From the IMG/VR virus record IMGVR_UViG_3300027906_000202, positions 1 through 20,005 of that record: 20,005 bases of DNA; one strand, written 5' to 3'. The position numbers and the translations under genes are program-made. The number at the start of each line of letters is the position of its first letter. Positions within the stretch are counted from its first letter, which is position 1. Below the pieces are notes generated by a model. That model ran no database searches and was not told the DNA's origin. It saw only the letters and a list, made by a program, of their open reading frames with translations. The stretch is from a virus. Positions 3,253 through 19,178 of the stretch are shown piece after piece.

Positions 3253-3519
3253 ATGTCTATGAGAAAATCGAGGAGCATTTTAGAAGAGTTAAACTCTATC
3301 AGTGTTGATAGAAGTCGTCATCATGTTCTCGAAAATAGAGTACAACATTTAGTTAGTAGTGCTGAAAACATTAAAGCAATTCTACGTGAATCTTATAGTC
3401 CAGAAGAAGCATTGGACTTAGAACGTAGACTAATAAACTCAATTAAATCAGGTGATTCTAAAAAATTCTCTCGTGGCATAAAGAAAGTTGTTGCGGAGAG
3501 CGAATCAAATGAGAGTTAA
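3253..3519 (+). CDS. Small helical protein of unknown function, late-expressed
   Basis: This 88-residue charged protein is probably mostly helical. Its centre (about 23-80) contains a patterned segment with SYSPEEALDLERRL and a KKFSRGIKK stretch. No catalytic motif, membrane segment or signal peptide is visible. It resembles small proteins seen downstream of the helicase in marine T4-like phages, from memory and unverified. It has its own late promoter (3223) and a weak AGGA ribosome binding site. It ends 11 nt inside the next gene, so the two are probably co-translated. Function is unknown. Confidence 0.75.
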   Translation: MSMRKSRSILEELNSISVDRSRHHVLENRVQHLVSSAENIKAILRESYSPEEALDLERRLINSIKSGDSKKFSRGIKKVVAESESNES

Positions 3520-4759
3520 GGACATTATAGAAGCACCAGGTGACGGTAGAGGTAGAGCGGCAGGTTCTGCCAAAACACAATACAAAAAAGATGGTACTCC
3601 CGGAGCAGGCAGAGTAGCAAGATCCAATAACCAATTTAGAAGTGTACCAAAAGGCACTAACGATCCTAGAGGATCTGACAATCCTATGAATCCTTTAGGT
3701 GATCCAGGTAAGCAAAACCAAGCGGGTCAAGACACTAAATTTAAAAGAGCAGACCAACAAATTAATCAAAAATTTGGAAATGATGATTCATTAGCAGGTG
3801 GTTCTAGCAGAATAGCACAATTCAAAAAAGACAAAGAAGAAAAAGCAAGAATGCAAAAATCACAGACCAAAGGTGATATTGGCAGATTTGCAGATGACCG
3901 TGCTTTATGGAAACCTGGTAAAGTTATACAACACCCAAATGGTTTAATGTATCAACTATTAGGTAAAAAAGAAGGTTGGATAGAAGTAACAGGACCTACA
4001 GTAAATAAAAAAACAGGAGAAGTAACAAAACCTGAATTGGCAAAACCAACTCCAGGCGGAAAAGCGGCTCCTATGGATAGTCAGTTAGGTAAAGACCTTA
4101 ACACATTATTAAAAGATCCAAAAGCAAATATTGACCAAACTATAGGTTCTAAAATTAAAGGTGCATTACAAAAAGGCGTTGCAGGTGCGGCGGCTAAAGC
4201 AGGAATGAGCAATTTAGCATCTAAAACAAGATCCGATCCAGATGCAAGTGCGGCACAAAAAGTTGGTGCTACAGTAGGTGCTGGTATTGGTAGAGCAATG
4301 GCAAACGTATTAAGAAGACCTAAAGGACAACCTGCACCAGATAAAAAACAAATGTCAAATGTTGGTAAATTAGACATGAAAGCATTTCAATCTAGGATAA
4401 TGAAGTCTCAAGACCCAGCAGAAAAATTGGCACTTGCAACAGATATGCTTGATAAAATTGCTGTACAAAAATCAAGAAACATAAGTGTAGAACCATATTT
4501 AGATAGTTTAGGTCCTATGTTAAAAGCAAGTGGTTTACAAAAAACTAATGCACAAGAATACCAAGCACTTGTTACAAAAGCAAGAGGCATGAGAGAGGCG
4601 GCATTTAATTACTTTAACAAGTTAATAGAAACAGTAGGAATAACTTGGGAGCAATTAGGTTATAAAGTAGTACTTTCAGAAAACAAAGGTGATGACATTA
4701 TTTTAATTCCTACAAAAGACATCGAATTACAACAACTTAAATCATTAGCAGGAGTTTAA
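3509..4759 (+). CDS. Basic low-complexity protein with capsid-targeting-like N-terminus
   Basis: The start is placed at ATG 3509, behind GGAGAG at 3495-3500, rather than at the upstream in-frame TTG at 3488, giving 416 residues. The N-terminus MRVKDIIEAPG fits a T4 capsid-targeting sequence with an I-I-E|A site for a gp21-type prohead protease. Residues about 10-135 are polar, basic and probably disordered. Residues about 210-270 are rich in Ala/Gly/Lys and could form an amphipathic or membrane-active helix. A more ordered C-terminal part starts at about 285. No enzyme motif is visible. Context and N-terminus suggest a packaged internal or core protein, which is an inference. Confidence 0.8.
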   Translation: MRVKDIIEAPGDGRGRAAGSAKTQYKKDGTPGAGRVARSNNQFRSVPKGTNDPRGSDNPMNPLGDPGKQNQAGQDTKFKRADQQINQKFGNDDSLAGGSSRIAQFKKDKEEKARMQKSQTKGDIGRFADDRALWKPGKVIQHPNGLMYQLLGKKEGWIEVTGPTVNKKTGEVTKPELAKPTPGGKAAPMDSQLGKDLNTLLKDPKANIDQTIGSKIKGALQKGVAGAAAKAGMSNLASKTRSDPDASAAQKVGATVGAGIGRAMANVLRRPKGQPAPDKKQMSNVGKLDMKAFQSRIMKSQDPAEKLALATDMLDKIAVQKSRNISVEPYLDSLGPMLKASGLQKTNAQEYQALVTKARGMREAAFNYFNKLIETVGITWEQLGYKVVLSENKGDDIILIPTKDIELQQLKSLAGV

Positions 4760-4760
4760 T

Positions 4761-6035
4761 ATGCGAGTTCAAGAGTTCACTAAACCTCTTGTTACTCGGT
4801 TGCTAACTGAAAGTGCCGTTGTAGAAGCAGAAGGCAAAAACACCCACTTAGAACATTTGGAAGATAACATATTCAACAAAGGATATGATGGAGCCAAAGA
4901 AGCAGTAAACTATTTGTACAGTCTACATGAAATGTTAGACGGCAGTACAAACTCACCAGTATCAATGACAACAAAATGGGATGGTGCTCCAGCCATTGTA
5001 GCAGGTAAAGATCCTGAAACAGGTAAATTTTTTGTAGGTACTAAAGGAGTATTTGCACAAAAACCTAAAATTAATTTTACTGAGAAAGACATAGAAGCAA
5101 ATCATCCAGGAGAAGGGTTACAAGACAAATTAAAATTAGCATTGATGACATTAAAAAAACTTAAATGGAATACAGTTGCACAAGGTGATTTTTTATTTGC
5201 AAAAGATACATTAAGTATGGATGATATAGACGGTGAAAATTATTTAACTTTTACACCTAATACTTTAACTTATGCAGTACCTTCACAAACACAATTAGCA
5301 TCAGATATTGTAAAAAGCGATATTGGTATTGTATGGCATACAGAATATGTAGGCGGCCCTACACTAGCAGACACTACAGCAAAGTTTGGCTTTGATAGTA
5401 GTGTGTTAGGAACAGCACCGGGTGTTTGGCATAGAGATGCAATTATTAAAGACCTAAGTGGTACAGTAACATTTACAGCAGGTGAAAGTGCAGATATAAT
5501 GCAGGCTATTAGTATTGCAAATGATTATTTAAAAAGTATAGACGGTGAAACATTTGCATGGTTACAACAAGGAACAGATTTAATAGGTAAAAACTTTTTA
5601 CTACAACTTAAAGCACATGTAAACAATGCCATTAGAGCAGGTGGATTTGAACAAGATCCAAATAAGTTTGCACAAGACTTTATACAAAAGTATGTAGACT
5701 TTATGACTAAAGAAATAGACAAAGTAAAAACACAAAAAACTATAGATGCTAAAACAGACTTAATGGTTAAGGGAGTTGCATTTATTAGGCAACACTTACA
5801 AGGAATAATTAGTGTATATGATTTATACTTAAAAATAATAGAAGCAAAAGTTAAAATAGTAAGAAAACTAGAACAAATAAGAGTAATGGATACATTTGTA
5901 CAATCAGATGATGGTTTTGAAGTTACTGGAGAAGAAGGTTTTGTTGCTGTAGACAGAATGGGTAATGCTTTAAAAATAGTAGATAGATTAGAGTTTAGTA
6001 GATTAAACTTTGATACAGGAAAACCAGCAACATGA
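4761..6035 (+). CDS. Ligase-like covalent nucleotidyltransferase (DUF6267-type), possibly packaged
   Basis: This 424-residue protein carries the signature of the DNA/RNA ligase and capping-enzyme superfamily. Motif I is K72-W-D-G75, where K72 would carry AMP or GMP. FVGTKG follows at 91-96, and QGDFLF at about 141-146 could be the acidic motif III. Near the C-terminus EGFVAVDRMG (392-401) followed by LKIVDR (404-409) resembles motifs IV and V. The long spacing between motifs I and IV is unusual and implies a helical insertion. From memory it matches the phage family DUF6267. The N-terminus MRVQEF is capsid-targeting-like, with L-T-E|S and V-V-E|A cleavage candidates at 15-23. AGGAG at 4750-4754 supports the start. 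It overlaps the next gene by ATGA. Confidence 0.7.
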   Translation: MRVQEFTKPLVTRLLTESAVVEAEGKNTHLEHLEDNIFNKGYDGAKEAVNYLYSLHEMLDGSTNSPVSMTTKWDGAPAIVAGKDPETGKFFVGTKGVFAQKPKINFTEKDIEANHPGEGLQDKLKLALMTLKKLKWNTVAQGDFLFAKDTLSMDDIDGENYLTFTPNTLTYAVPSQTQLASDIVKSDIGIVWHTEYVGGPTLADTTAKFGFDSSVLGTAPGVWHRDAIIKDLSGTVTFTAGESADIMQAISIANDYLKSIDGETFAWLQQGTDLIGKNFLLQLKAHVNNAIRAGGFEQDPNKFAQDFIQKYVDFMTKEIDKVKTQKTIDAKTDLMVKGVAFIRQHLQGIISVYDLYLKIIEAKVKIVRKLEQIRVMDTFVQSDDGFEVTGEEGFVAVDRMGNALKIVDRLEFSRLNFDTGKPAT

Positions 6036-7102
6036 ACATACCAACAGATGTAGAAAATTTTATAGGTAGACTTAATCCAATGGAAGTTGGAGTAGATACT
6101 GTTGGCGATTATGTTATACATTATGAAGGCTTTAGTGATGAATGCAATGATGGATATGATGATGAACAAATACATCAAATTTATAAAGATGTTTATAAAG
6201 ACTTCGATGAACGTTCAAATGCAAAACCAATAAAACGTGGTCATACATATGATGAATTAGGTGTTGACCATAATCCTGTGTTGTATAGCATTTATAAAAA
6301 AGAAGATGTTAAAGAAAGTAAGTTTTTACTTATTGATGAAGATTTAAGCGAAAGTAGACTGTTTAGATTTACTATGAGTTTCCAAAGATTAACTGGCAGA
6401 GATGTTTGCGACTTATTATATGCAGAAACACTTGCAACATATATGTTTGCATTAGATGAAAAACAACAAGATTATGGAACTGCATACGCAAGAAAAACAA
6501 CACAATATGGTCCTTATTCAGTATTTAGAACTAGTGCAACGGATATATACATGCTGGCTTTTGCTATTAATCAACCTGATTACAAGTCATTAAAGTTAGA
6601 TCCTAAGGATAGAAGAATGTTAAACAACCTTAGTTTTAACAATAGACAGCACTATATGTTTATGAACAAAATTGCTAGATATACACCTAGTAGAAGTGAT
6701 GCTAGTTCGTACTTAATTAGATTAGAAGCACAATTAAAAATGAGTATGTCTAGACATGGTGCTCTCTTTAAGCAATTTAGAAGATTAATTTTAGATTGGC
6801 CAGATTTAAAATACAGTCAAAAGCAGTATGTTATTGCAAAACTAATGCAAATAATTAGATTAAAAGGTAAAGGTACAGAAATATTCCCACATTTGGTTGC
6901 AATGAAAACTAGTAGAAGATATGATAATGTTAAACCAGCAAAACCAACAAGCAATTTGAAAAGAGCCGCCGCTACAGTTGGTGGTGCTTATGTTGGTAGC
7001 AAGTTAGTTCCTAAACTTACTAAGAATAAATTAGGAAGTAAAACTGGTGCTGGTATAGGAGCCATTGCAGGTTATTGGGCAAGTGGACGTAAAAAAGTAT
7101 AA
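6032..7102 (+). CDS. Unknown late protein with glycine-zipper-like C-terminus
   Basis: This 356-residue protein is not recognised. The first 90 residues are acidic and tyrosine-rich. Residues about 110-290 look helical and mixed-charge. The C-terminus (about 310-350) is rich in Gly/Ala/Ser with GGAYVG and GAGIGAIAGYWASG, a pattern typical of glycine zippers that insert into or perturb membranes, ending in basic RKKV. It lacks the capsid-targeting-like N-terminus of its neighbours and is translationally coupled to the ligase-like gene by an ATGA overlap, which suggests the two products work together. The stop codon lies inside the late octamer for the next gene. Confidence 0.8.
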   Translation: MNIPTDVENFIGRLNPMEVGVDTVGDYVIHYEGFSDECNDGYDDEQIHQIYKDVYKDFDERSNAKPIKRGHTYDELGVDHNPVLYSIYKKEDVKESKFLLIDEDLSESRLFRFTMSFQRLTGRDVCDLLYAETLATYMFALDEKQQDYGTAYARKTTQYGPYSVFRTSATDIYMLAFAINQPDYKSLKLDPKDRRMLNNLSFNNRQHYMFMNKIARYTPSRSDASSYLIRLEAQLKMSMSRHGALFKQFRRLILDWPDLKYSQKQYVIAKLMQIIRLKGKGTEIFPHLVAMKTSRRYDNVKPAKPTSNLKRAAATVGGAYVGSKLVPKLTKNKLGSKTGAGIGAIAGYWASGRKKV

Positions 7103-7105
7103 ATA
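7098..7105 (+). promoter_or_regulatory. Late promoter (perfect TATAAATA), leaderless geometry
   Basis: This is the only exact T4-consensus octamer among the eight candidates. It overlaps the stop codon of the upstream gene and ends 5 nt before the ATG at 7111. In T4 the octamer spans -13 to -6, so transcription would start on the A of the start codon. No Shine-Dalgarno is visible before that ATG. A chance AT-rich match cannot be ruled out. Confidence 0.6.
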
Positions 7106-7110
7106 CAGTT

Positions 7111-7656
7111 ATGAGAATCAACGAAGTTTTAAATAGTAAAAATTATATCACAGAAGAAGACACTATGACTTTGGCTGATGTACAAGTTATGTATGGCGAT
7201 GATCCTGAAATGATGGCGGCTATACAAAAAGCAAAGATGTTACCAAAAATTAAAACTTGGGACCAAGCAATAGATAAAGCAAGTGCTGATATGCGTAGAA
7301 ATGCTAACAAAGGTCAGCAAGCCGCACCAGATAGAAAATTTGCATCTAACAGTAGAGCAAAAGGATGGGACGATGAAACTCATGGTCATTTAAGAAAAGC
7401 AAAAGCAAAAGCCGCCGCAAAAGCACAAAAACCTATGTCAGGTGATGGCGAAACAGGTGAAATTAATAGAGCCGCTGGCACTTTCATGAAGTCTGTTGGC
7501 GATGCTATGGATACAATAAAACACGGTTCAATGGGAGACATCAATACTGCTGTAGACAGAGGAAAACACGTAGGTAAAGACGGCATGGAACTGTGGAATG
7601 TAACGGCAAAAACAAAACGTTCTAAAGACAGAGGCGGAAACTTCGGCTCTAGATAA
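7111..7656 (+). CDS. Basic late protein with capsid-targeting-like N-terminus
   Basis: This 181-residue, strongly basic protein has no recognised domain. The N-terminus MRINEVLNSKNYITEED fits the shared pattern, with an I-T-E|E cleavage candidate at 13-16. The middle contains an Ala/Lys-rich run (about 90-107) that would be helical and DNA-binding in character. The end is rich in Lys, Arg and Gly. There is no ribosome binding site before ATG 7111 and a late octamer sits 5 nt upstream. An alternative start at 7165, behind a purine-rich AGAAGAAG, would remove the targeting sequence. A packaged DNA-associated protein is the best guess. Confidence 0.75.
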   Translation: MRINEVLNSKNYITEEDTMTLADVQVMYGDDPEMMAAIQKAKMLPKIKTWDQAIDKASADMRRNANKGQQAAPDRKFASNSRAKGWDDETHGHLRKAKAKAAAKAQKPMSGDGETGEINRAAGTFMKSVGDAMDTIKHGSMGDINTAVDRGKHVGKDGMELWNVTAKTKRSKDRGGNFGSR

Positions 7657-7693
7657 TCAATCAAAAACATATTTTATTAACTCTATTTTATTC

Positions 7694-7701
7694 GATAAAT
7701 A
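7694..7701 (+). promoter_or_regulatory. Late promoter (GATAAATA)
   Basis: An exact GATAAATA lies in the 79-nt gap before the small protein gene at 7736. The predicted start at about 7707 falls inside the left arm of a hairpin (7702-7724), and AGGAG follows at 7725-7729. The rest of the gap upstream (7657-7693) is AT-rich without a convincing terminator. Confidence 0.8.
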
Positions 7702-7724
7702 ACATTATAGTAAAACTATAGTGT
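7702..7724 (+). promoter_or_regulatory. Hairpin straddling the late start site, next to the ribosome binding site
   Basis: ACATTATAG (7702-7710) pairs with CTATAGTGT (7716-7724): nine base pairs, one of them G-U, with loop TAAAA. The right arm abuts AGGAG at 7725-7729. Read-through RNA would fold it, while RNA starting at about 7707 would lack over half of the left arm. Confidence 0.6.
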
Positions 7725-7735
7725 AGGAGAATAGC

Positions 7736-8059
7736 ATGGCACTTACAAGAGTAAATGGTGGTGTTGAAGAAGGACAATTACTTGTTGGTTCTTTAACTCA
7801 TTTAATTATAGACGAAGTTGATGGTACAGATAATATCAGTAACTTCGGATTTACAAGTGGTAACCCTGATCCGGGTGAAAAAGTTGTGCAGGCAATTTCT
7901 GTACATTGTACACCAGTTCTCATTAATTCTGCAAACGCAAGAGTAATGTATATTGGTGTTGAAGGTTCACCTAATACAACTGCAATGGCGGCGTCTATTA
8001 ATAGTGTTTTATCTCACAATAACGCAACTGTTACAGCAGGAAGTTACATTGTAGCATAA
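7736..8059 (+). CDS. Small late protein, probable virion component
   Basis: This 107-residue protein is neutral to acidic, rich in Ser, Thr, Val, Asn and Gly, with alternating hydrophobic residues suggesting a beta-sheet fold. No signal peptide or catalytic motif is visible. It has its own late promoter (7694), a consensus AGGAG and a strong terminator (8077), the arrangement expected for a highly expressed structural protein such as a head decoration or tail protein. It shares M-[AS]-L-[TN]-R at the start and a V-V-Q-x-I...P...N pattern with the product of the gene at 8618, suggesting distant homology. The structural role is inferred. Confidence 0.85.
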   Translation: MALTRVNGGVEEGQLLVGSLTHLIIDEVDGTDNISNFGFTSGNPDPGEKVVQAISVHCTPVLINSANARVMYIGVEGSPNTTAMAASINSVLSHNNATVTAGSYIVA

Positions 8060-8076
8060 GTTTAATTTAAAACTGA

Positions 8077-8105
8077 AAAAGCACACCTCGAGTGTGCTTT
8101 TTTTT
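8077..8105 (+). terminator. Rho-independent terminator
   Basis: AAAAGCACAC (8077-8086) pairs perfectly with GTGTGCTTTT (8092-8101) around loop CTCGA, and the T run extends to 8105. The next late promoter starts at 8106, directly after it, so the two cassettes are separated with no spare sequence. Confidence 0.93.
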
Positions 8106-8113
8106 GATAAATA
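8106..8113 (+). promoter_or_regulatory. Late promoter (GATAAATA)
   Basis: An exact GATAAATA begins immediately after the U tract of the preceding terminator. The predicted start near 8119 gives a leader of about 25 nt that contains AGGAG just before the ATG at 8144. Confidence 0.82.
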
Positions 8114-8143
8114 ACTGCAACTATATATAATTAGGAGAATAAA

Positions 8144-8515
8144 ATGGCTCAAACTAAAGTAGCACCAACTTTCGTAGATGAAGATACATTCTTTATTGGG
8201 AAAAAAGTAACATTAATAGAAATTACTTATGCGGCGGCGGTTAATGCCAAAACAGGACCTTTATCAGCAATTCAGGCAACTCATGAAGCAATTATGGGAG
8301 CAGGTTTTAATATTTTAGGTTATGGCGCATTAACAGATACAAATACAGTATCAGCAATGATGATTGAAGGCGAATATGGAACAGATACATATGATGGATC
8401 TAATTCAGAAACAATAGCGGCTCACTTAGAAGATGTTGTACAAGCATTAGGCACAGTAGACGGAATTAACCTCGGTGGCACAGCAATCGCGGCTAAAGCC
8501 TTTGCATTAGCATAA
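8144..8515 (+). CDS. Small late protein, probable virion component
   Basis: This 123-residue protein is acidic and rich in Ala, Thr and Gly, with a hydrophobic AAAVNAKTG segment and an Ala-rich C-terminal end. It has no signal peptide, membrane helix or known motif. It is flanked by its own late promoter and terminator and has a consensus AGGAG ribosome binding site, so it should be expressed strongly late in infection. A VVQAL stretch near its C-terminus recalls the VVQ motif of the two flanking small proteins, but the rest does not align well, so I do not claim homology. A capsid decoration or tail role is plausible from context only. Confidence 0.85.
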   Translation: MAQTKVAPTFVDEDTFFIGKKVTLIEITYAAAVNAKTGPLSAIQATHEAIMGAGFNILGYGALTDTNTVSAMMIEGEYGTDTYDGSNSETIAAHLEDVVQALGTVDGINLGGTAIAAKAFALA

Positions 8516-8534
8516 ACTAATTTTAGATAATTTA

Positions 8535-8566
8535 AAAATCCTCGACTTTGTTCGGGGATTTTTTTT
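8535..8566 (+). terminator. Rho-independent terminator
   Basis: AAAATCCTCGA (8535-8545) pairs with TCGGGGATTTT (8552-8562), 11 base pairs with one G-U, around loop CTTTGT. A T run continues to 8566. It ends the cassette starting at 8106. Confidence 0.92.
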
Positions 8567-8588
8567 GACTACATGTTCTGACAAAAGT

Positions 8589-8596
8589 GATAAATA
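8589..8596 (+). promoter_or_regulatory. Late promoter (GATAAATA)
   Basis: An exact GATAAATA lies 22 nt after the preceding T run. The predicted start at about 8602 gives a leader of about 16 nt containing AGGAG (8607-8611) before the ATG at 8618. With no terminator seen downstream, it may drive 8618-17650. Confidence 0.8.
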
Positions 8597-8617
8597 CAAG
8601 TTATACAGGAGACACAC

Positions 8618-9022
8618 ATGAGTTTGAATAGAAAAGGAGCGATGGGCTCCGTAGAAGTACTAACAGGTAACATAGAATTTTTTACTTTGTTTACTACTTT
8701 GGATATAACAGTAACAGGTGATTATAACGATAGTAGTCAAAAAGACTTCGAGAGTGTAGTTCAATGTATAGGATTAAGAGCGATGCCAACAGTAATGAAT
8801 AACCCAGTAGCATTAAACGGTAGTGGTTCAAATGTTTTAGAAAATTATGGTGCACCAACTTTAACTGGTTCAGGATATATTTTTAAATTTGCCACAGAGA
8901 TACCTGGTGCTCATAGTGTAGATACATTAAAAGATGAACTAAATGGAATTGTATTGAACGCAGGAGTTATAGATACCAAGAGTACTGTTAATATGGAATT
9001 TACTAAACAGGATCTATTATAA
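8618..9022 (+). CDS. Small late protein, probable virion component
   Basis: This 134-residue protein appears beta-rich, with Thr/Gly/Asn-rich turns and no signal peptide, membrane helix or enzyme motif. Its N-terminus (MSLNR) and a VVQCIGLRAMP...N segment at about 45-60 match the pattern of the protein encoded at 7736 (MALTR; VVQAISVHCTP...N), suggesting divergent paralogues. AGGAG precedes the start. Unlike the two cassettes before it, no terminator follows: its stop overlaps the next start as TAATG, so the late transcript continues downstream. A structural role is inferred from this layout. Confidence 0.85.
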   Translation: MSLNRKGAMGSVEVLTGNIEFFTLFTTLDITVTGDYNDSSQKDFESVVQCIGLRAMPTVMNNPVALNGSGSNVLENYGAPTLTGSGYIFKFATEIPGAHSVDTLKDELNGIVLNAGVIDTKSTVNMEFTKQDLL

Positions 9023-9288
9023 TGAAAAAATCAGAACAGCAAGGAAAATTAGACCAACAGTTAGAACAAAACAAACAAGTTTATGCTGAGTCTAATAATT
9101 TAGAAGCACACATTATTGCTGACATGTTGCGTATTGAAAGCATTACGACAGAGTTAAGAGAGTTTAAAGAAGATACAAAACACAGATTAAACAAAATAGA
9201 GAATTGGCTAGTTGCAATAGTAGGAACATCATTTACAACACTTATTGCAATAGTAGTTGGTTTACTAGTAAACCTATTTGGAAGTTAA
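9022..9288 (+). CDS. Small tail-anchored membrane protein (XhlA/holin-like shape)
   Basis: This 88-residue protein has a charged, Gln/Glu/Lys-rich N-terminal part with coiled-coil character (about 5-60) and one C-terminal transmembrane helix (about 62-86), followed by only a couple of residues. That shape matches XhlA-type hemolysin/holin accessory proteins and other phage membrane proteins with cytoplasmic coiled coils. It could act in lysis or membrane remodelling, but no endolysin or spanin is nearby. It overlaps the preceding gene by 1 nt and is followed after 1 nt by the basic protein gene, so all three share the late promoter at 8589. Confidence 0.75.
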   Translation: MKKSEQQGKLDQQLEQNKQVYAESNNLEAHIIADMLRIESITTELREFKEDTKHRLNKIENWLVAIVGTSFTTLIAIVVGLLVNLFGS

Positions 9289-9289
9289 T

Positions 9290-9589
9290 ATGAGATTAGA
9301 CGAAATAGTTAATGAAGAAGAAATTTTTGAAGCCCGAATGGTTTGGCGTAAAATGGGTAAGAAAATTAAACGTGCTGTAAGGTGTACAACCGGCAGACGT
9401 AAAGGTAGAGTTGTGAGTAACCCAGCACAATGTTCTGCTCCCATTAATATGAAAAAACGTATGGTATTAAAAAGAACAAAAGCAAAAATGGGTAAACGTC
9501 TTAGCAGAAAAGCAAACAGAACTAAAAGACTTAATCCAGCAAGTAGACGTTTAAGACAGTTAAACAGAAGTACTAGAGCCAGAAGATAA
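9290..9589 (+). CDS. Very basic, probable DNA-binding packaged protein
   Basis: The start is set at ATG 9290, one base after the preceding stop, instead of the in-frame ATG at 9278. This gives 99 residues. MRLDEIVNEEEIFEARM fits the capsid-targeting pattern, with an ideal I-F-E|A cleavage site at 12-15. What remains is dominated by Lys and Arg, including a VRCTTGRRKGR segment and a second cysteine at about 45 (PAQCSAP); a two-cysteine metal or disulfide site is possible. The C-terminus is almost histone-like. DNA condensation in the head is the natural inference. Similar proteins occur in marine T4-like phages, as I recall. It overlaps the giant gene by 1 nt. Confidence 0.82.
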   Translation: MRLDEIVNEEEIFEARMVWRKMGKKIKRAVRCTTGRRKGRVVSNPAQCSAPINMKKRMVLKRTKAKMGKRLSRKANRTKRLNPASRRLRQLNRSTRARR

Positions 9590-12500
9590 TGAAGTTTAAA
9601 GATGTTAAAACATTAGAAAGCATATTACTGGAATACGGAATGAAGTCTGGTTCCAGCACACCAACTGCTCAACAGCAGACCGGTGCAAATGCAAAAGCAA
9701 ACAAAACTAAAAGTCCAACAACATCTAACACACCTAAAAAAGCAGACCAAGGCAGTCCAACTGTAGGCGATAAAAATGCACCAGAGCCTATAGAGCCACA
9801 ACAACAATCAGCAAAAGATATTGAAAAAGATGCAGTAATTGTAGGAAAAGATAATAAAAACAAAAAAGTTGTATCACCCGTAGGTCAAGGAAACTTACCA
9901 GATGCAATGGTAGTACAAGATGATGATGGCGAGTATGAAGTTATTGACCAAAATGAAAAGGTTGATGCACTATCCCCAGAAGATGCAGAACAAGTAGGAA
10001 AAGATCCTAGTTTACTAGCAAAAGGAAAAGGTGCCTTTGGCGCCGGAGCAGGTGCTGTTGATACAATAGCAAATTTAATGGCATCAAAAGACCCTAATGT
10101 AAAAGAAGGCAAAATACGAAAACGTATTAATAAAAAAGCACTTAATAAATTAAAGCCTAGAGTAAGACAAGAAAAAGGTAGAGTTAAAAAACTTGCAAAA
10201 ATAGGATTAAAAGAAGCACCTGAAAAACTATTCGAAATAAATTTTAGAAATAAGGACGTTATTAACAGTTCACTTGATGCACAAATACGTTGTGGTTGGG
10301 AGGCAGAAACTGTATGGGAAAATATATCAGGACCTAGTGATGATATAGACAACTTAACTCTTAATGAAGTTGATGAACAGTTTGGCGGCGTTGATTGGGA
10401 CGGTTTATCAGAAAGTTATACAGAATGGTTGTATGATAACAAAGTAGAAGAATTTATAGATGACCTAATTCAAGAATTCATCAACGAACGTGAAGATGAC
10501 GAAGATTATATCAATGAATTTATAGAAGATGAAGGCATAGAAGAATCAGATTGGGATGATTACAGAGAAGGTGTACTAAGAACTGAATACGGTGATGAAA
10601 GATTTGAAGAAGAAGGTGCTGATGAATTGTCTGAATTGTATGGATATGAAGATGAAAATTGGGCAAGAGAATATGTTGATGAATATAGAGGCAGTGACTT
10701 TAGAGAATACTTAAGAAACATAGCAGAAGAAGATGATGATATAAAACAAGCGGCATACGAAGAAGCCAGTGAAAATTATGATTATGACGATTATATCAAT
10801 GACACATATTACAGCATGAGTGAATTCTGTGATAATTGGGACATTGATTACAGTAGCGGAGGTAATTTAGAAGAAGTAGCAGACAAATTAGAAGATTGGA
10901 TATCCGGCCAGAGTGCTTTCCACGACCATAGACCTGACACAGGTTCATATGGAGATACTAGTGGAGATACTACAGAATATGCTGTTGAAACAGATAGTAG
11001 TATTGATGGATATGGTACTGGTGCTGAAATTATATCACCTGTGTTTAGTACTCCAAGAAGAATGTTAAAAGAAATGGACAAGTTCTTTAAGTTTTTACAA
11101 GGTGAAGGAGTTGTAACAAATAATAGTACTGGATTACACATTACTATGAGTTACTTTCCACAAGAAGGCGAAACTGTAAGTCATGAAGAAGGTTCAAGCA
11201 ACGTAACAGCAAACAAAGTTAAGATGGCTGTATTGCTAGGAGACCAATACTTGTTAAGTCAATGGGGAAGGGACCGCAACACTTATACAAAGAGCCAATT
11301 AAAAGAATTACAAACAGCAATTCAAAACTTAAAGAGAGAAGGGCGAGGAACAGATGCAATTAAAGAAGCAGAAAAATTTTTAGCAAAACACATCAGTGAA
11401 GATAAGTTCCGCTCAATACATTTTAAAGGTCAAACAGACCAAAAAACAAAAACAAAATTAATAGAATTTAGAATAGGTGGTGGAGAAGACTACCATGAAG
11501 AATTTAAAAAAGTGTTTAGTTCTGTAGTAAGATATGCTACTACAATGATTGCTGGACACACGGATCAATATCAAGGTGATTATGTAAAAGCATTACTTCG
11601 ATTAATGAATAACATGGATAAAATAGCAACCAGCGATGAAGAAGAAGTAGAAAATTTAAAAAATCAACATTCAGACTACGCAGGACATCCTATTTTAGAT
11701 ACACATAAAGCAATAGTAGGTGCTAAACACTATTTAGATTTTACTCAGAAAATGCTTAATTCAATGGAAGATTTACACAAAGCATCATTGTATCTAGATC
11801 CAAAAGCAGACAAGAAATGGAAAAAGGAATGGGTAGACTTTTTAAAAGGTACCGGCAGTAATTTGGATGATTATGATAGTAAAATAAGAAAAGCATTAGA
11901 CAAGATTCCAGGTAAAAAAATTACAGAAGATAAAGATAGAGAAGACCAGTCTATTAAAGCATATATGCAACCTGAAACAACACCACCTAGTGAAAGAGCA
12001 TCTGATAAACGTAAAGACGGTTTACGAAAATTTAGTGAAGCGATGGGTATGGTAGCAGTAGATATTAGTAATAAGACTGCAAGGTCACAACCTAATGCTA
12101 AAAGTATTGGAGCATTGAGAAGTTTCTTAAAAGAGCATGAGATTTCAGATACTGAATTAGACTTAAACATAAGAAATGCTTTAACTGATATAAACTTTGG
12201 CTCTGGTGAAGATACTAAAAACACTCAAAAAGCCAAACTGGAAACACTTAGACATGGTATTAATACTCTTATACAAAGAGATATTATATCTAGACCAGAT
12301 TATGCAACTAGTCCGCAAGTCGAAGCAATGGCTAAAGGTCTTTGGAATGCTTTTAATGATGAAAAATTTGATGATAGAGCAAGAAAAGAATTAATACAAC
12401 TAGTAATTAATATGCGTACAGGTGACCTATCACAAGGTTCTGTGGACGATACAGAAGTTAAAAGAGATGTAGCAATACTTCTTGACCAAGCAAAAGACAA

Positions 12501-15500
12501 AAGAGAGTTTAATGACTTTTATAATACAATAGTTGGAAGAAGGTTAACCACTGGTCACCCAGATGGAGTTTTAACACCTGGTAGTATTTTCTCCAAAGCA
12601 GATTTTGATAAATTGGTAAGTTTCCTTAAAGGGTTTGAATCTTATACACAACCTGTAAACAGATATCACAATCCTAATTTATATAATGATGATAGTTATG
12701 AAGAAAATTCATTAAGCAAATACACATTATTGTTAAGAAGAAGATTTGAATATTTAGAAAATCAGTTTGATAGTGACAAATCATTAGCAACACAATCTCT
12801 AGAGAGAATGTCTAAATTAGTAGAAACTTATTATCAAGAAAATCAATCAGGACAGTTTGAATGGCCCGACATATTTGGTATAGATGAATTAGAATTAAGA
12901 AATCCAGAACCAACTGATCCTAGAGTTAAAAAAATGTCTGAAGAAGATAAAGATACAATATTAGATTTATATGGAGACAATGACGGAACACCTTATTTAG
13001 GAATAAATTCGTATAAAGTAGAAAGAATTCAAAGTTCATTAGATGATATTGCTAGAGGTGATGTAGAACGAAGAACAATTTCTAATATGAGTGAATTTGT
13101 TACAGATAGTATTAGAGAGGCACTAGGAGCCTATTATAGAAACAAAGAAAGATATCCAGAGTATTACAAATTTGAAGAAGTTAAAAATCTTATTAAAGAA
13201 AGATTTGAAGGCTTGCGAGATTTTATGCGAGGCATTGACAAAATTTTTGTAGATAATGGATTTGATAGTCAAGATGAAATTATTAAACGTAAGCAACAAA
13301 TAGACAAAGACGCAAAAGAATTTGCAAAACTTCAGAGGAATAAACCTTTAGCAACTGTTAATTTACCTTCCCATTCTATAATGTATATGGACAACATTTC
13401 ATATGAAAGATTTGAAGAGTATGTTGACGAAAGAGAAAATTCAGATGATACTGATGCACCAGTGAATACTGCAAGAGATGTAGTTAAAAAAATAATTGCG
13501 GGTGCTAGGCAAGTGAATGGTCATGTAAATTCCGGACATGCATCAATATATGTAGTACCAGCGGCACATTGGGGTCCATGTGGAGATGCTGTTAATGGAA
13601 TGGAAATTATTAAACTACAACAACGAGTTGGTAACATGTCCCAAGCATGGCGTGTAAAAAATTACCATGCCTTGCTTGAAAAGTTTGCAGAAACATATCA
13701 AGAAAATTTCGAACGATTACAAAGGACAGACTTATATAAAGTTATTGATGGAACAGATAGGTCAAAATTAAGCAAACACTTTGGAATACAGTTTACTGGT
13801 AAATTAGATGGTAGAACAGGAATGGGAGATGTAGAAGACTTAATCCCAAGAGAGAAGTTAAACAATAAGTATTCAGGTGAACCATTAGATAGAAATAGTG
13901 CTATTAGTTGGGCTATAAACAATGACGAAAATGAGAAGAAACAATTCCACGCATATGATTTTGCAAAGTATCACGGTAACGAAGCAGATAAAATTAAAGA
14001 ACTAGTTGCTAAAGAAATGAAAGACAACGATAGAAGTTTTGGTGTTGCTATACAAAAAGTAATGGAGCGAAGTCCAAAAGGCGTAATGGTAATAGATAAT
14101 GACAAAATTGCAAAAGCGGCTGGTGTTGAACACATGGAACGTGAAGCATCTAACACTATTCAAGATGCCACAAATTGGGGCAACCTAGCAGACTTCTTTA
14201 AAATAGAAAGAGGTGTAGACAATCAAGGTCCAAACATGTTAGAGAAAGTTTCTAGAACATTTGACGGTGACCATAATTGGAGACCAGAGCCAAACCCAGA
14301 TGCTTGTTGTTTGGAAAGATGGGTAGCATGTGTAAAACATGCCACCGAGTATATCAAAATGAATTATACAGTTAGTGCTGGAAACTATTTTAGAAAAGAA
14401 AATGACGGCAGTCCGGGTGATGACGTAGGTTCTATTTATGGTGATTCAGGAAGTAATCCTCCACCAAGCAGAAGAGGACGAGCAGATGGTGTCGGCATCA
14501 CATATAATAGCGATGAAGAAGTAACTGAACAAGATTACGAAAAAGTCAGATCCGAATATATTGATTTTGATAGGATGATGAATGCGGGTATGCAAAATTA
14601 TATGGTCAGACCCGACGTAAACTTATTGGTAGGTTTCTTGAAGAATCCAAACAATGATGAGGAATTCAAACAGGCTGTTTTACAAAGCATGATGAAAGAA
14701 AAATTACTAGGTTCAGAACCAAACGATTGGCAAGGTCATTTAGCAAGAGCCAGACAGTTTTATGCAGATAGATATAATGAGAGTGTTTTTGATAGATTCG
14801 ATAAACTACCTTTACAAGAACAATTAATTATTTTAGAAAAATCAACTGTATTATCTGAGATAAGTGATACTAAAAAACGTGAACTAGAATATGAATTAAG
14901 GAATGAACCTAAAAATAACTATGCTGTAATTATAAATGGTAAAACGTGGAAAATAGTTTCTAGTGAAGACAGAGCAAAAAAGATGGTTAACACACTTGTA
15001 GGAAAAGGCAAAGATGCTAGGTATAGTGAAACAGGTCAACCAGTTAATGAAAGTGTACCAACTATTAAAACAACAAAAATTTTAAATGATATATTAGCAG
15101 ACCATTTTCCAGTAGGTGACCTTAAGAAACAAATGTTAGCCTTTCAGGCTATACCTATTCCTCAAATGTTAAATCAGTTTAGAGAGTTAAGAGGAGAAGC
15201 AGGTGATGATGCATGTGCAAGAGGCATTGTAAGATACTATGTAAATGCATTACCAAAAGAACAACAAGACCAAATAGAGTTAAATGAATGGGCAAAAAGC
15301 AAAGTTAGAAGTTTAATAGAATCCAAAGGTATTATGGGCAGAGTACAAGGTGATACTTTTTTAAAAGGAGATGATAGATTAGAGTTTCAAAGTGTAACTT
15401 TATACCCTACAGAAGAAATGGAGTTTAACTCTCCTGAACAAAGAGATGATTTTATACAACAATTAGAACAAGAACTAAACAGTCAAATAGAATGGACAAA

Positions 15501-16647
15501 TACTCCTAATAAAGGTAGTTTAGCATTTGGTGTGGCAATACTAACAGACCCTGCATTAGATGATAAAATAACATATTGGGGAAGATACTTTAAACAAAAA
15601 ACAGCAGATATGATGGGTAAATGGAGCAATAGCCAAGTACCTGTGGGTTGGAAACTACAAACTGCTGGAGCAATGAAGTTAGATATTGGTATTGATCCAC
15701 AGCACTTGATTAAAACAGATGACCCCTTTAATGGTGTCTTAGACGTCATACAAGCAGTCAAAACTAACTCTGCCGGTAATGAACTATCTGAATCATTAGT
15801 CAACGCACTAGAGACTATACATACGCAAGAACACCCAGTATTTCCAGGTCAAATAGCAAACTTACCAGCATTAAGAGATTATTTTGGTGAGATTATGGGT
15901 CCAGTAGCATTAATGAGTGAAATGGTAGGTGGACAGGCAGATAATGCCAAAGCAGATTTATTAAAAGGTTTACCTTGGTCAAATTGTAGTATATTTTGGC
16001 CCATGGCGATGAATGCCCCACTAGTTGATAGTTACTTTACAGCACCAGACGGTACTAGAGTAGGTATTAGTAGTAAAGGCGGTAAAGGTGCAAAAGCAAG
16101 TGTTAAAAATATACAAGATGCTATATTAAAAGCACCAGAAGAATTAAAAGCACAATATCCTACAACAGTTAATGTTATTAATATTGTACAAAGCAATAGT
16201 GCTAAAGATGGTCCATTTAGATTAGCAGAATTATATAATATTTTACCACAAGGATTAGAAGAAGAAATAAATGGATATATTCAAGAAGGAAAACAAGACT
16301 ATGCTGGATTAAGTCCTGCATGTACAGAATTATTCAATTACGGAACACCAAGACAAGATGTACCAGGATTTAATACAGGTTATGCTATGTTGGCTCTACT
16401 TGCTAAAAAAGTAACAAAAGCAATAAACACATCAGGTCCAGAATTTGGACAAGGCTGTGTAGCATTCCTTAACCAATCCAGCATTGTACAGTTGTATTGC
16501 AAAATGGGTAAAATGGGTGACGATGCTAGAGTAACAGGATGGGAGGCTGTATATCCGCCAAACTTCCAAGGTACAGTAGAAATAGATGGCAGTAAAAATT
16601 ACTACAGTTCGAGAATAGGTGGTAAGTTTGCCTTTGGATTTAAGTAA
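9589..16647 (+). CDS. Giant multidomain protein with amidoligase-like domain
   Basis: This is a single uninterrupted 2,352-residue protein, over a third of the window. Its start MKFKDVKTLESILLEYG is capsid-targeting-like with L-L-E|Y at 13-16. Residues about 18-100 are Gln/Lys/Pro-rich linker, and 160-215 are strongly basic. Residues 235-243 (CGWEAETVW) and 465-484 (VETDSSID, GAEIISP with E480), NSTGLH (512-517) and EFRI (626-629) match amidoligase_2 (ATP-dependent amide-bond-forming) signatures. Between the first and second of these lies an extremely acidic stretch (about 250-450). A small domain with YAVIINGKTWKIV lies at about 1780-1825. The C-terminus has D2147...SSK2163 in a nuclease-like spacing. 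No membrane helix is seen. Amidoligase is fairly likely; the rest is unknown. Confidence 0.8.
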   Translation: MKFKDVKTLESILLEYGMKSGSSTPTAQQQTGANAKANKTKSPTTSNTPKKADQGSPTVGDKNAPEPIEPQQQSAKDIEKDAVIVGKDNKNKKVVSPVGQGNLPDAMVVQDDDGEYEVIDQNEKVDALSPEDAEQVGKDPSLLAKGKGAFGAGAGAVDTIANLMASKDPNVKEGKIRKRINKKALNKLKPRVRQEKGRVKKLAKIGLKEAPEKLFEINFRNKDVINSSLDAQIRCGWEAETVWENISGPSDDIDNLTLNEVDEQFGGVDWDGLSESYTEWLYDNKVEEFIDDLIQEFINEREDDEDYINEFIEDEGIEESDWDDYREGVLRTEYGDERFEEEGADELSELYGYEDENWAREYVDEYRGSDFREYLRNIAEEDDDIKQAAYEEASENYDYDDYINDTYYSMSEFCDNWDIDYSSGGNLEEVADKLEDWISGQSAFHDHRPDTGSYGDTSGDTTEYAVETDSSIDGYGTGAEIISPVFSTPRRMLKEMDKFFKFLQGEGVVTNNSTGLHITMSYFPQEGETVSHEEGSSNVTANKVKMAVLLGDQYLLSQWGRDRNTYTKSQLKELQTAIQNLKREGRGTDAIKEAEKFLAKHISEDKFRSIHFKGQTDQKTKTKLIEFRIGGGEDYHEEFKKVFSSVVRYATTMIAGHTDQYQGDYVKALLRLMNNMDKIATSDEEEVENLKNQHSDYAGHPILDTHKAIVGAKHYLDFTQKMLNSMEDLHKASLYLDPKADKKWKKEWVDFLKGTGSNLDDYDSKIRKALDKIPGKKITEDKDREDQSIKAYMQPETTPPSERASDKRKDGLRKFSEAMGMVAVDISNKTARSQPNAKSIGALRSFLKEHEISDTELDLNIRNALTDINFGSGEDTKNTQKAKLETLRHGINTLIQRDIISRPDYATSPQVEAMAKGLWNAFNDEKFDDRARKELIQLVINMRTGDLSQGSVDDTEVKRDVAILLDQAKDKREFNDFYNTIVGRRLTTGHPDGVLTPGSIFSKADFDKLVSFLKGFESYTQPVNRYHNPNLYNDDSYEENSLSKYTLLLRRRFEYLENQFDSDKSLATQSLERMSKLVETYYQENQSGQFEWPDIFGIDELELRNPEPTDPRVKKMSEEDKDTILDLYGDNDGTPYLGINSYKVERIQSSLDDIARGDVERRTISNMSEFVTDSIREALGAYYRNKERYPEYYKFEEVKNLIKERFEGLRDFMRGIDKIFVDNGFDSQDEIIKRKQQIDKDAKEFAKLQRNKPLATVNLPSHSIMYMDNISYERFEEYVDERENSDDTDAPVNTARDVVKKIIAGARQVNGHVNSGHASIYVVPAAHWGPCGDAVNGMEIIKLQQRVGNMSQAWRVKNYHALLEKFAETYQENFERLQRTDLYKVIDGTDRSKLSKHFGIQFTGKLDGRTGMGDVEDLIPREKLNNKYSGEPLDRNSAISWAINNDENEKKQFHAYDFAKYHGNEADKIKELVAKEMKDNDRSFGVAIQKVMERSPKGVMVIDNDKIAKAAGVEHMEREASNTIQDATNWGNLADFFKIERGVDNQGPNMLEKVSRTFDGDHNWRPEPNPDACCLERWVACVKHATEYIKMNYTVSAGNYFRKENDGSPGDDVGSIYGDSGSNPPPSRRGRADGVGITYNSDEEVTEQDYEKVRSEYIDFDRMMNAGMQNYMVRPDVNLLVGFLKNPNNDEEFKQAVLQSMMKEKLLGSEPNDWQGHLARARQFYADRYNESVFDRFDKLPLQEQLIILEKSTVLSEISDTKKRELEYELRNEPKNNYAVIINGKTWKIVSSEDRAKKMVNTLVGKGKDARYSETGQPVNESVPTIKTTKILNDILADHFPVGDLKKQMLAFQAIPIPQMLNQFRELRGEAGDDACARGIVRYYVNALPKEQQDQIELNEWAKSKVRSLIESKGIMGRVQGDTFLKGDDRLEFQSVTLYPTEEMEFNSPEQRDDFIQQLEQELNSQIEWTNTPNKGSLAFGVAILTDPALDDKITYWGRYFKQKTADMMGKWSNSQVPVGWKLQTAGAMKLDIGIDPQHLIKTDDPFNGVLDVIQAVKTNSAGNELSESLVNALETIHTQEHPVFPGQIANLPALRDYFGEIMGPVALMSEMVGGQADNAKADLLKGLPWSNCSIFWPMAMNAPLVDSYFTAPDGTRVGISSKGGKGAKASVKNIQDAILKAPEELKAQYPTTVNVINIVQSNSAKDGPFRLAELYNILPQGLEEEINGYIQEGKQDYAGLSPACTELFNYGTPRQDVPGFNTGYAMLALLAKKVTKAINTSGPEFGQGCVAFLNQSSIVQLYCKMGKMGDDARVTGWEAVYPPNFQGTVEIDGSKNYYSSRIGGKFAFGFK

Positions 16648-16648
16648 T

Positions 16649-17650
16649 ATGCGATTAATAGAATTACAGATAGAACGTCCAAAGTCAGACAAAAACTTCC
16701 CAAGAAATATAATGCCTCAAATAAGAAAAGGCGATATACAAGATTCACCTTTTGAATACTCTAAAGAAAAAATAGATATAGAGAAACTAATGCCTGTACA
16801 AAACCAACGTGTACAAGGTATGCATGATAGAGCAAAGAAGGGTTTTGATGATGGTAGCATAAGACCTATTGTAGTTGATAAAAATAATTATATTGTAAAT
16901 GGACATCATAGATTTGATGTTGCATTACAAATGGGTTTAAAGAAAATTAAAATATTAAGAGTTGATGCTACAATAGAAGACTTAATTGACCACTTTAGTA
17001 ATACATCAAGTGATGCACCTACATTTGAAGAAATAATGAAACAAAAGTTAGCAAAAGCAATGGAAGGTGATGTTGTAGATTTCCCTGGAACGTATTATAA
17101 AAAGGAATATGTTACTATAAATGGCGTAAAGATGCTCAGAGATGTTTGGGACTATATGAGCCAAGACAGAGAACATGCCCATGGATATGATGATAATTAT
17201 GTTCCAACCCATAAAGGTCTCACTAATTTTACAGGCGATGAAGATCCAAGAATTTTAAAGAGAGCATATCAAATGGAATTGAGAAACTTTATAGATGAAC
17301 TTGAAAACAATGACTTTGATATGGACCCACAACCATTTATAGATGAACTAGACCGAATAGATGAAGATTGGGCAGAAAGATACAATCTAAATCCTAGTGT
17401 TAAAAAATATGTAGATGATAACTTATGGAAATTGTCTACTGTAGACGTAAAAGATTTAGATGACGAAGCACACGATGACCAATTTGGTAGAGTAATTGAT
17501 GTTGACCCAGAAGATGCAGATAGTGTCCATTTAGATGACCCAATAATAGTACATGCTGATGGAAAAACAGTACTAGATGGCTTTCATAGAGTTTATAAAG
17601 CAAAAGAGTTAGACGTAAAAGTATTACCAGCATATATACCTAAGCAGTAA
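16649..17650 (+). CDS. Protein with two ParB-like domains and capsid-targeting-like N-terminus
   Basis: The start is set at ATG 16649, one base after the giant gene's stop, not the in-frame ATG at 16619 inside that gene; this gives 333 residues. The first ParB/sulfiredoxin-like domain (about 42-107) has IDIEKLMP, then IRPIVVD and the nucleotide-binding NGHHR at 84-88. A second, more divergent one (about 285-330) has DPIIVHADGKTVLDGFHR (DGFHR 310-314). The acidic middle (about 190-290) may be a linker. ParB-like folds bind or hydrolyse CTP/ATP, nick DNA, or act as kinases, so the activity is open. MRLIEL resembles the shared N-terminus, though the L-I-E|L site is weaker than in the others. Confidence 0.75.
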   Translation: MRLIELQIERPKSDKNFPRNIMPQIRKGDIQDSPFEYSKEKIDIEKLMPVQNQRVQGMHDRAKKGFDDGSIRPIVVDKNNYIVNGHHRFDVALQMGLKKIKILRVDATIEDLIDHFSNTSSDAPTFEEIMKQKLAKAMEGDVVDFPGTYYKKEYVTINGVKMLRDVWDYMSQDREHAHGYDDNYVPTHKGLTNFTGDEDPRILKRAYQMELRNFIDELENNDFDMDPQPFIDELDRIDEDWAERYNLNPSVKKYVDDNLWKLSTVDVKDLDDEAHDDQFGRVIDVDPEDADSVHLDDPIIVHADGKTVLDGFHRVYKAKELDVKVLPAYIPKQ

Positions 17651-18986: not shown

Positions 18987-19178
18987 ATGAAAATTAAAGA
19001 TATCATAATTAATGAAACAGCATCAGTAGGAGGCATGAGTGCAGGAGCAGTTGCAACAGTAGTTAAGCCTATTGCTAATGATGTCCAACGTGTTGTTCAA
19101 AAACCTAAGAAACCTAAAAAGATAGGCAAAAAGAAACCAGGACCTAAAGGTAAAAAAAGTACTTTACTAAGGAGATAG
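18987..19178 (+). CDS. Small basic protein with capsid-targeting-like N-terminus
   Basis: This 63-residue protein starts MKIKDIIINETASVGG, which fits the shared N-terminal pattern with an I-N-E|T cleavage candidate at 8-11. A Gly/Ala/Val stretch (about 14-28) could be membrane-active or a short helix. The C-terminus (about 39-63) is a lysine/proline-rich tail. Small size, positive tail and targeting sequence together suggest a packaged DNA-associated peptide similar in concept to T4 internal proteins. The start has no Shine-Dalgarno and lies 5 nt after a late octamer. The next gene begins 1 nt after the stop, behind AAGGAGA within this gene. Confidence 0.75.
   Translation: MKIKDIIINETASVGGMSAGAVATVVKPIANDVQRVVQKPKKPKKIGKKKPGPKGKKSTLLRR

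Follow-up and report, generated by a model that had tools for sequence, protein, structure and literature searches.

The window, an entire viral record of 20,005 b, contains an open reading frame for a giant protein of 2,352 amino acids (positions 9589..16647, + strand) that starts with ATG and has no internal stop codon. The translated product has a computed mass of about 266 kDa and a pI of 5.0. Related giants carrying an amidoligase domain range from 1,595 to 2,404 amino acids and are spread over many other viral contigs; they were gathered by pattern-based scans, so that their numbers provide no estimate of prevalence, and the family is known from uncultured contigs only. Because giants of the same family occur with an intact frame in many of these contigs, an assembly artefact or a fusion of separate frames was dropped as an explanation. 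The dN/dS values indicated purifying selection along the whole protein. A megablast search with the window DNA against isolated phages gave no match, and sequence searches of the giant against Pfam, PHROG and PDB yielded no useful match. As these direct searches were uninformative, the link to amidoligases was made only via the relatives of the protein.

The deduced protein (features below are all on the + strand) can be divided into an N-terminal tag (9589..9639), a poorly conserved linker rich in S, T, G, P, Q, A and N (residues 18-195, 9640..10173), an amidoligase domain of the glutamine synthetase type (residues 205-690, 10201..11658), a middle region with no recognised domain (residues 701-1815, 11689..15033), a connector (residues 1816-1900, 15034..15288) and an exchangeable C-terminal module (residues 1909-2352, 15313..16644). 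The middle region is shortened in the related giants of loci L063 and L068 and absent from that of L067.

The N-terminus that the earlier note had described as shared was recovered in seven genes of the window with the consensus M-[KR]-hydrophobic-x-[DE]-hydrophobic. In the following, a slash marks the site after the tag. The set includes the genes at 3509..4759 (MRVKDI, in full MRVKDIIE/APG), 4761..6035 (MRVQEF, MRVQEFTKPLVTRLLTE/S), encoding a DUF6267 protein, and 7111..7656 (MRINEV), encoding a 181-aa protein with the start MRINEVLNSKNYITEE, as well as the gene directly preceding the giant at 9290..9589 (MRLDEI, MRLDEIVNEEEIFE/A), the stop codon of which overlaps the ATG of the giant. The giant itself starts with MKFKDV and is followed by a gene for a protein with a ParB-like domain and the tag-like start MRLIEL (16649..17650) and by a gene for a tagged basic protein of 63 amino acids (18987..19178, MKIKDI, in full MKIKDIIINE/T). 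The very basic product of the 9290..9589 gene is small and rich in K and R and resembles a basic internal head protein.

The window phage is a marine-type phage. Relatives of the DUF6267 protein were detected in 466 phage records, mostly of cyanophages, and also in pelagiphage HTVC008M and in Methylophilales phages, and the helicase of the window most closely resembles its counterparts in the jumbo phages PA5oct, Phosso and Atu_ph07. Three further observations were made by eye: the DUF6267 protein contains the stretch T-K-W-D-G-A-P-A, which is reminiscent of motif I of nucleotidyltransferases and ligases; an open reading frame at 1090-1845 with the start MKLLVNGCSFTGG, located beside the primase and helicase genes, appears similar to GDSL/SGNH hydrolases in its first residues; and a radical-SAM-like reading frame (CNAACPVCVRR) lies downstream of the giant in L004 (13112-14401).

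Amidoligase domain of the giant protein

The motifs on which the earlier note had based an amidoligase signature (GxExE, ETDSSID, GAEIISP, NSTGLH and EFRI) were all verified residue by residue, namely G236-W-E238-A-E240, E467-T-D469-S-S471-I-D, G478-A-E480-I-I-S-P, N512-S-T-G515-L516-H517 and E626-F-R628. Their order is that of the Amidoligase_2 family (PF12224), in which GxExE, ExDxS, GxEIxSP, GLH and EFR follow each other, whereas the spacing, which the note had also ascribed to this family, departs from that in a compact Amidoligase_2 protein, since GxExE and ETDSSID are approximately 225 residues apart. Most of this distance is taken up by an acidic segment (residues 255-445, 10351..10923; 35% D+E, pI 4.1) that is all-helical in the AlphaFold model. 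In all of the 26 sequences compared, the most divergent of which share 30% identity, the same residues occupy twelve key motif positions, and few stretches of the giant are as well conserved as this region, the dN/dS of which is low. This indicates that the motifs did not arise by chance.

Neither the window giant nor its amidoligase domain matched any Pfam profile, including PF12224, over threshold, and the acidic helical insert separating the first motif from the others probably contributes to such low scores. With respect to the PF12224 cut-off of 22 bits, the orthologues of L036 (30.3 bits) and L063 (26.9 bits) scored above it and those of L046 and L061 just under it, and seven of the 26 members of the family profile matched PF12224 at E <= 1. 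Moreover, residues 463-674 of the giant matched AUZ94978.1 (L019:11419-12921), a protein of 500 amino acids encoded by Agrobacterium phage Atu_ph07, with an E value of 6e-6, the tblastn alignment covering only 9% of the giant; this protein itself scores 30.2 bits against PF12224. The profile A5, built from the amidoligase regions of the 26 sequences, picked AUZ94978 out of the 490-kb Atu_ph07 genome at an E value of 6e-27, and the motifs ExDxS, E-x-x-SP, TG-x-H and EFR line up in the alignment. A scan of cellular genomes with the same profile yielded no confirmed match.

The AlphaFold model of the domain (pLDDT 81.4) allowed the structure-based comparison that the earlier note had proposed. 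Among the PDB matches listed, 50 of 50 were glutamine synthetases or related ligases, the best with an E value of 4e-3 and a probability of 0.99 at a low TM score of about 0.2-0.26. Viral amidoligases were retrieved from an E value of 6e-18 onwards, the closest being 'amidoligase enzyme' proteins of uncultured Caudovirales in UniProt/BFVD (for example A0A6J5LC14, 1,071 aa), and the Atu_ph07 protein followed at 5e-9. The profile matches to the Atu_ph07 protein and to orthologues recognised by PF12224, along with the fold comparison, bear out the amidoligase identity proposed earlier, and the domain almost certainly belongs to the amidoligase fold and family. It differs from typical Amidoligase_2 proteins by its location in a tagged protein of 2,352 residues, by the long acidic helical insert and by the score of the window copy under the HMM threshold. 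The insert and the position of many members, including that of the window, under the Pfam cut-off might suggest a degenerate amidoligase that retained the fold for binding and lost catalysis. Against this, all twelve motif residues are invariant in the 26 sequences and dN/dS of the domain is low, making such a loss highly improbable. Judging from the residues conserved, the domain is very probably catalytically active.

Connector and exchangeable C-terminal modules

Pairwise comparison of the giants revealed a constant N-terminal part and variable C-termini, an arrangement absent from the earlier note, which had mentioned neither the exchangeable C-terminal module nor the connector nor the stand-alone form of the module. 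The connector of about 85 residues (LLADHFPVGDLKKQMLAFQAIP...DACARGIVRYY) was present in 20 of the 23 compared proteins and is kept while the adjoining module changes. Type A modules terminate the giants of the window and of L026, L028, L046, L051, L061-L063 and L068 and are also found in L067, whereas type B modules are present in L023, L024, L027, L033, L038, L043, L044 and L048. Type C, corresponding to phrog_3560, occurs in L031 and L036, where it sits before a terminal connector. A comparison of types A and B by hhalign gave no match past the edge of the connector, and tblastn searches with both types against isolated phages likewise gave no match.

Type A additionally exists as a stand-alone protein of 448-449 amino acids that carries its own tag and starts with MRAKEFIIEAKG or MRAKEFLSESKG; such copies were found in L009-L017, L066 and L070-L074. 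Those of L066 (7962-9329) and L070 (7962-9326) are encoded by phages that are otherwise different. In L067 (positions 6036-9353) a protein of 1,103 amino acids combines tag, connector and type A module without the amidoligase domain, and about 400 residues in the middle of this protein lack any match. The giant of L033 is C-terminally fused to a Cu/Zn superoxide dismutase (13578-14759; PF00080, E value 1e-44) and a ParB-like domain, and in L001, L005 and L008 the giant is followed by tagged genes that, by eye, start like the superoxide dismutase part.

Conserved acidic and lysine residues are common to the three module types. In type B modules, such as those of L023, L048 and L044, the residues E, D and E-x-K are invariant in eight sequences that are 21-35% identical to the first, and this E...D...ExK pattern corresponds to the active-site arrangement of PD-(D/E)XK nucleases. 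Type A contains the conserved residues E2101, D2147 and S2161-S-K2163, with the serine standing where PD-(D/E)XK enzymes have D or E. Type C, with conserved E, D and S-x-K, is shared with cyanophage ACG-2014f, in which the phrog_3560 protein AIX32097.1 (L084:2713-4014) displays the same E...D...SxK residues. The AlphaFold model of type A gave no match among PDB folds, and no fold is therefore claimed for it. Type B gave no match in Pfam and only chance matches in sequence-profile searches of PDB, the cyanophage protein of type C gave only chance matches in a PDB sequence search, and PADLOC returned no hits. As none of the searches with profiles or folds bore out a nuclease, we infer this activity from the motifs. 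The nuclease reading is stronger for type B, which is probably a nuclease, than for type A, for which the chances of such a function appear to be slightly below even.

N-terminal tag and candidate packaging signal

The giant starts with the tag MKFKDVKTLESILLEYG, a putative capsid-targeting peptide with a gp21-type site (L-L-E15/Y), and residues 1-30 show a dN/dS of 0.04. In phage T4, the protease gp21 cleaves after L/I-X-E, and internal proteins bear capsid-targeting propeptides of 10-19 residues (PMC9026906). The tag pattern was detected at 104 of 663 gene starts in the collected loci compared with 8 of 3,253 internal methionine positions, figures that depend on a pattern picked after inspection, on loci gathered around the cassette, on mechanical gene calls and on related, hence non-independent, genes. 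After gene starts had been re-picked, an L/I-x-E site within residues 6-20 was counted in 92 of 122 tagged proteins versus 16% of the untagged ones, and the excess disappeared further downstream. Composition-preserving shuffles of the tagged N-termini yielded a mean of 32 sites (SD 4.4) against the 92 observed, and with similar N-termini removed the site was present in 81 of 108 proteins versus 28.6 +/- 4.2 after shuffling. The residue most commonly following the site was alanine or serine. These statistics support the interpretation of the shared N-terminus as a putative targeting peptide with a gp21-type site and lend weight to the packaging-type N-terminus postulated in the earlier note.

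The distribution of the tag was further inspected in a 340-kb contig carrying the giant L063. In the 180 kb that were read, the strict tag was found in 7 of 229 reading frames, five of which are located at 193.7-204.5 kb around the giant. A genome-wide bias of gene starts was dropped as an explanation of the tag, which is largely confined to the cassette in this contig. The same contig encodes a protease of the gp21 family (Peptidase_S77); no such protease was found in ten other contigs with relatives, which may be fragments. From the tag and its site, packaging of the giant in the phage head appears reasonably likely. An ordinary intracellular enzyme would alternatively remain unpackaged and act on a small molecule, phage DNA or a protein, with the shared N-terminus docking the cassette proteins on one partner. 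The restriction of the tag mainly to one cassette would fit this explanation, as would neighbouring genes for DUF6267, ParB-like and Cu/Zn superoxide dismutase proteins, none of which is a known head protein. It is nevertheless unlikely in view of the frequency of the protease-type site after the tag, far above that in shuffled sequences, and of the presence of the same cassette in the contig encoding the gp21 homolog.

The protein of Atu_ph07 shares with the giants not only the homologous domain but also a tag-like start (MRWQDI...KLTE), and it is the only tag bearer among about 75 genes of this phage that were checked. It is a single-domain protein without connector or C-terminal module. Its gene lies two genes from the portal gene and within CDS 170-215, the range in which the virion proteins of Atu_ph07 cluster (PMC6102473). 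As a tagged amidoligase of an isolated and cultured phage, encoded beside the portal, it offers a direct test case.

The tag with its L/I-x-E sites, its presence on many neighbouring genes and the location of the Atu_ph07 homolog beside portal and prohead genes would also fit a protein of the internal prohead core or scaffold, whose large body would mainly serve to fill or shape the head while its enzyme domains act on phage structural proteins, for instance by cross-linking them through amide bonds in maturation. Swappable modules and stand-alone module copies are atypical of scaffolds, the L067 form lacks the amidoligase altogether, and the strict conservation of the motifs points to an enzyme, although a structural substrate would be compatible with it. 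A core or scaffold function is thus considered improbable.

Proposed role of the giants

On balance, the giant is best described, with somewhat better than even confidence, as a modular, probably head-packaged phage effector resembling polyvalent proteins. The N-terminal peptide would dock it in the prohead core, a gp21-like protease would probably cut the tag at L-x-E, and the protein would be delivered together with the phage DNA. The amidoligase domain, judging by motifs and homologous folds, would use ATP to couple a carboxylate with an amine, and the conserved connector adjoins a swappable module that, by its E...D...(E/S)xK residues, is possibly a nuclease. Host or competitor molecules may be its targets at an early stage of infection; whether it acts on them after injection is evenly balanced. 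The tagging of host proteins suggested in the earlier note would be one option among others for its substrate. The confinement of the tag mainly to the cassette in the 340-kb contig counts against a packaged effector, as docking elsewhere than in the head is possible, and so do the lack of a fold match for type A and of an alignment with type B past the connector edge, together with the position of the window protein alone below Pfam thresholds.

Polyvalent proteins of phages and plasmids are thought to be delivered along with DNA (Iyer et al. 2017, PMC5512222), and the giants are comparable in being very large, multidomain phage proteins with diverse, shuffled effector domains. The words amidoligase and glutamine synthetase are absent from the text of that study. 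As none of the polyvalent marker domains (LPD, MPTase, ART and others) was detected over threshold in the giants, with a weak LPD3 match (E value 0.003) in one relative, the giant is termed polyvalent-like rather than a member of this class. T4 internal proteins and Alt, with their targeting sequences cut by gp21 (PMC9026906), share the short N-terminal peptide ending in L/I-x-E; the internal proteins differ in being small and unrelated in sequence, and the packaging of the giant is predicted. The analogy with the virion RNA polymerase of phage N4 drawn in the earlier note proved loose, since tag placement and architecture are nearer to T4 internal and polyvalent proteins. A more far-reaching and tentative reading considers the giants as polymorphic, capsid-delivered weapons, in which a constant chassis of tag, amidoligase and connector would carry swappable nuclease-like tips exchanged from phage to phage, in a manner likened to the tip exchange of polymorphic bacterial toxins. 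In the literature searched, packaging of an amidoligase giant was not described, and large phage proteins named 'amidoligase enzyme' are present in UniProt.

Phage amidoligases are widely annotated. The occurrence of an amidoligase in a tagged, modular giant connects such an enzyme with the virion and with phage entry, and the question of its role thereby becomes testable. Moreover, the shared cassette tag could help to predict the packaging of uncharacterised gene products in these phages, and the connector points to the places in which new nuclease-like effectors can be sought. If the giants indeed serve as capsid-delivered weapons, they would be the first case of an injected amidoligase to become known, and would bring about a covalent modification of host components as infection begins.
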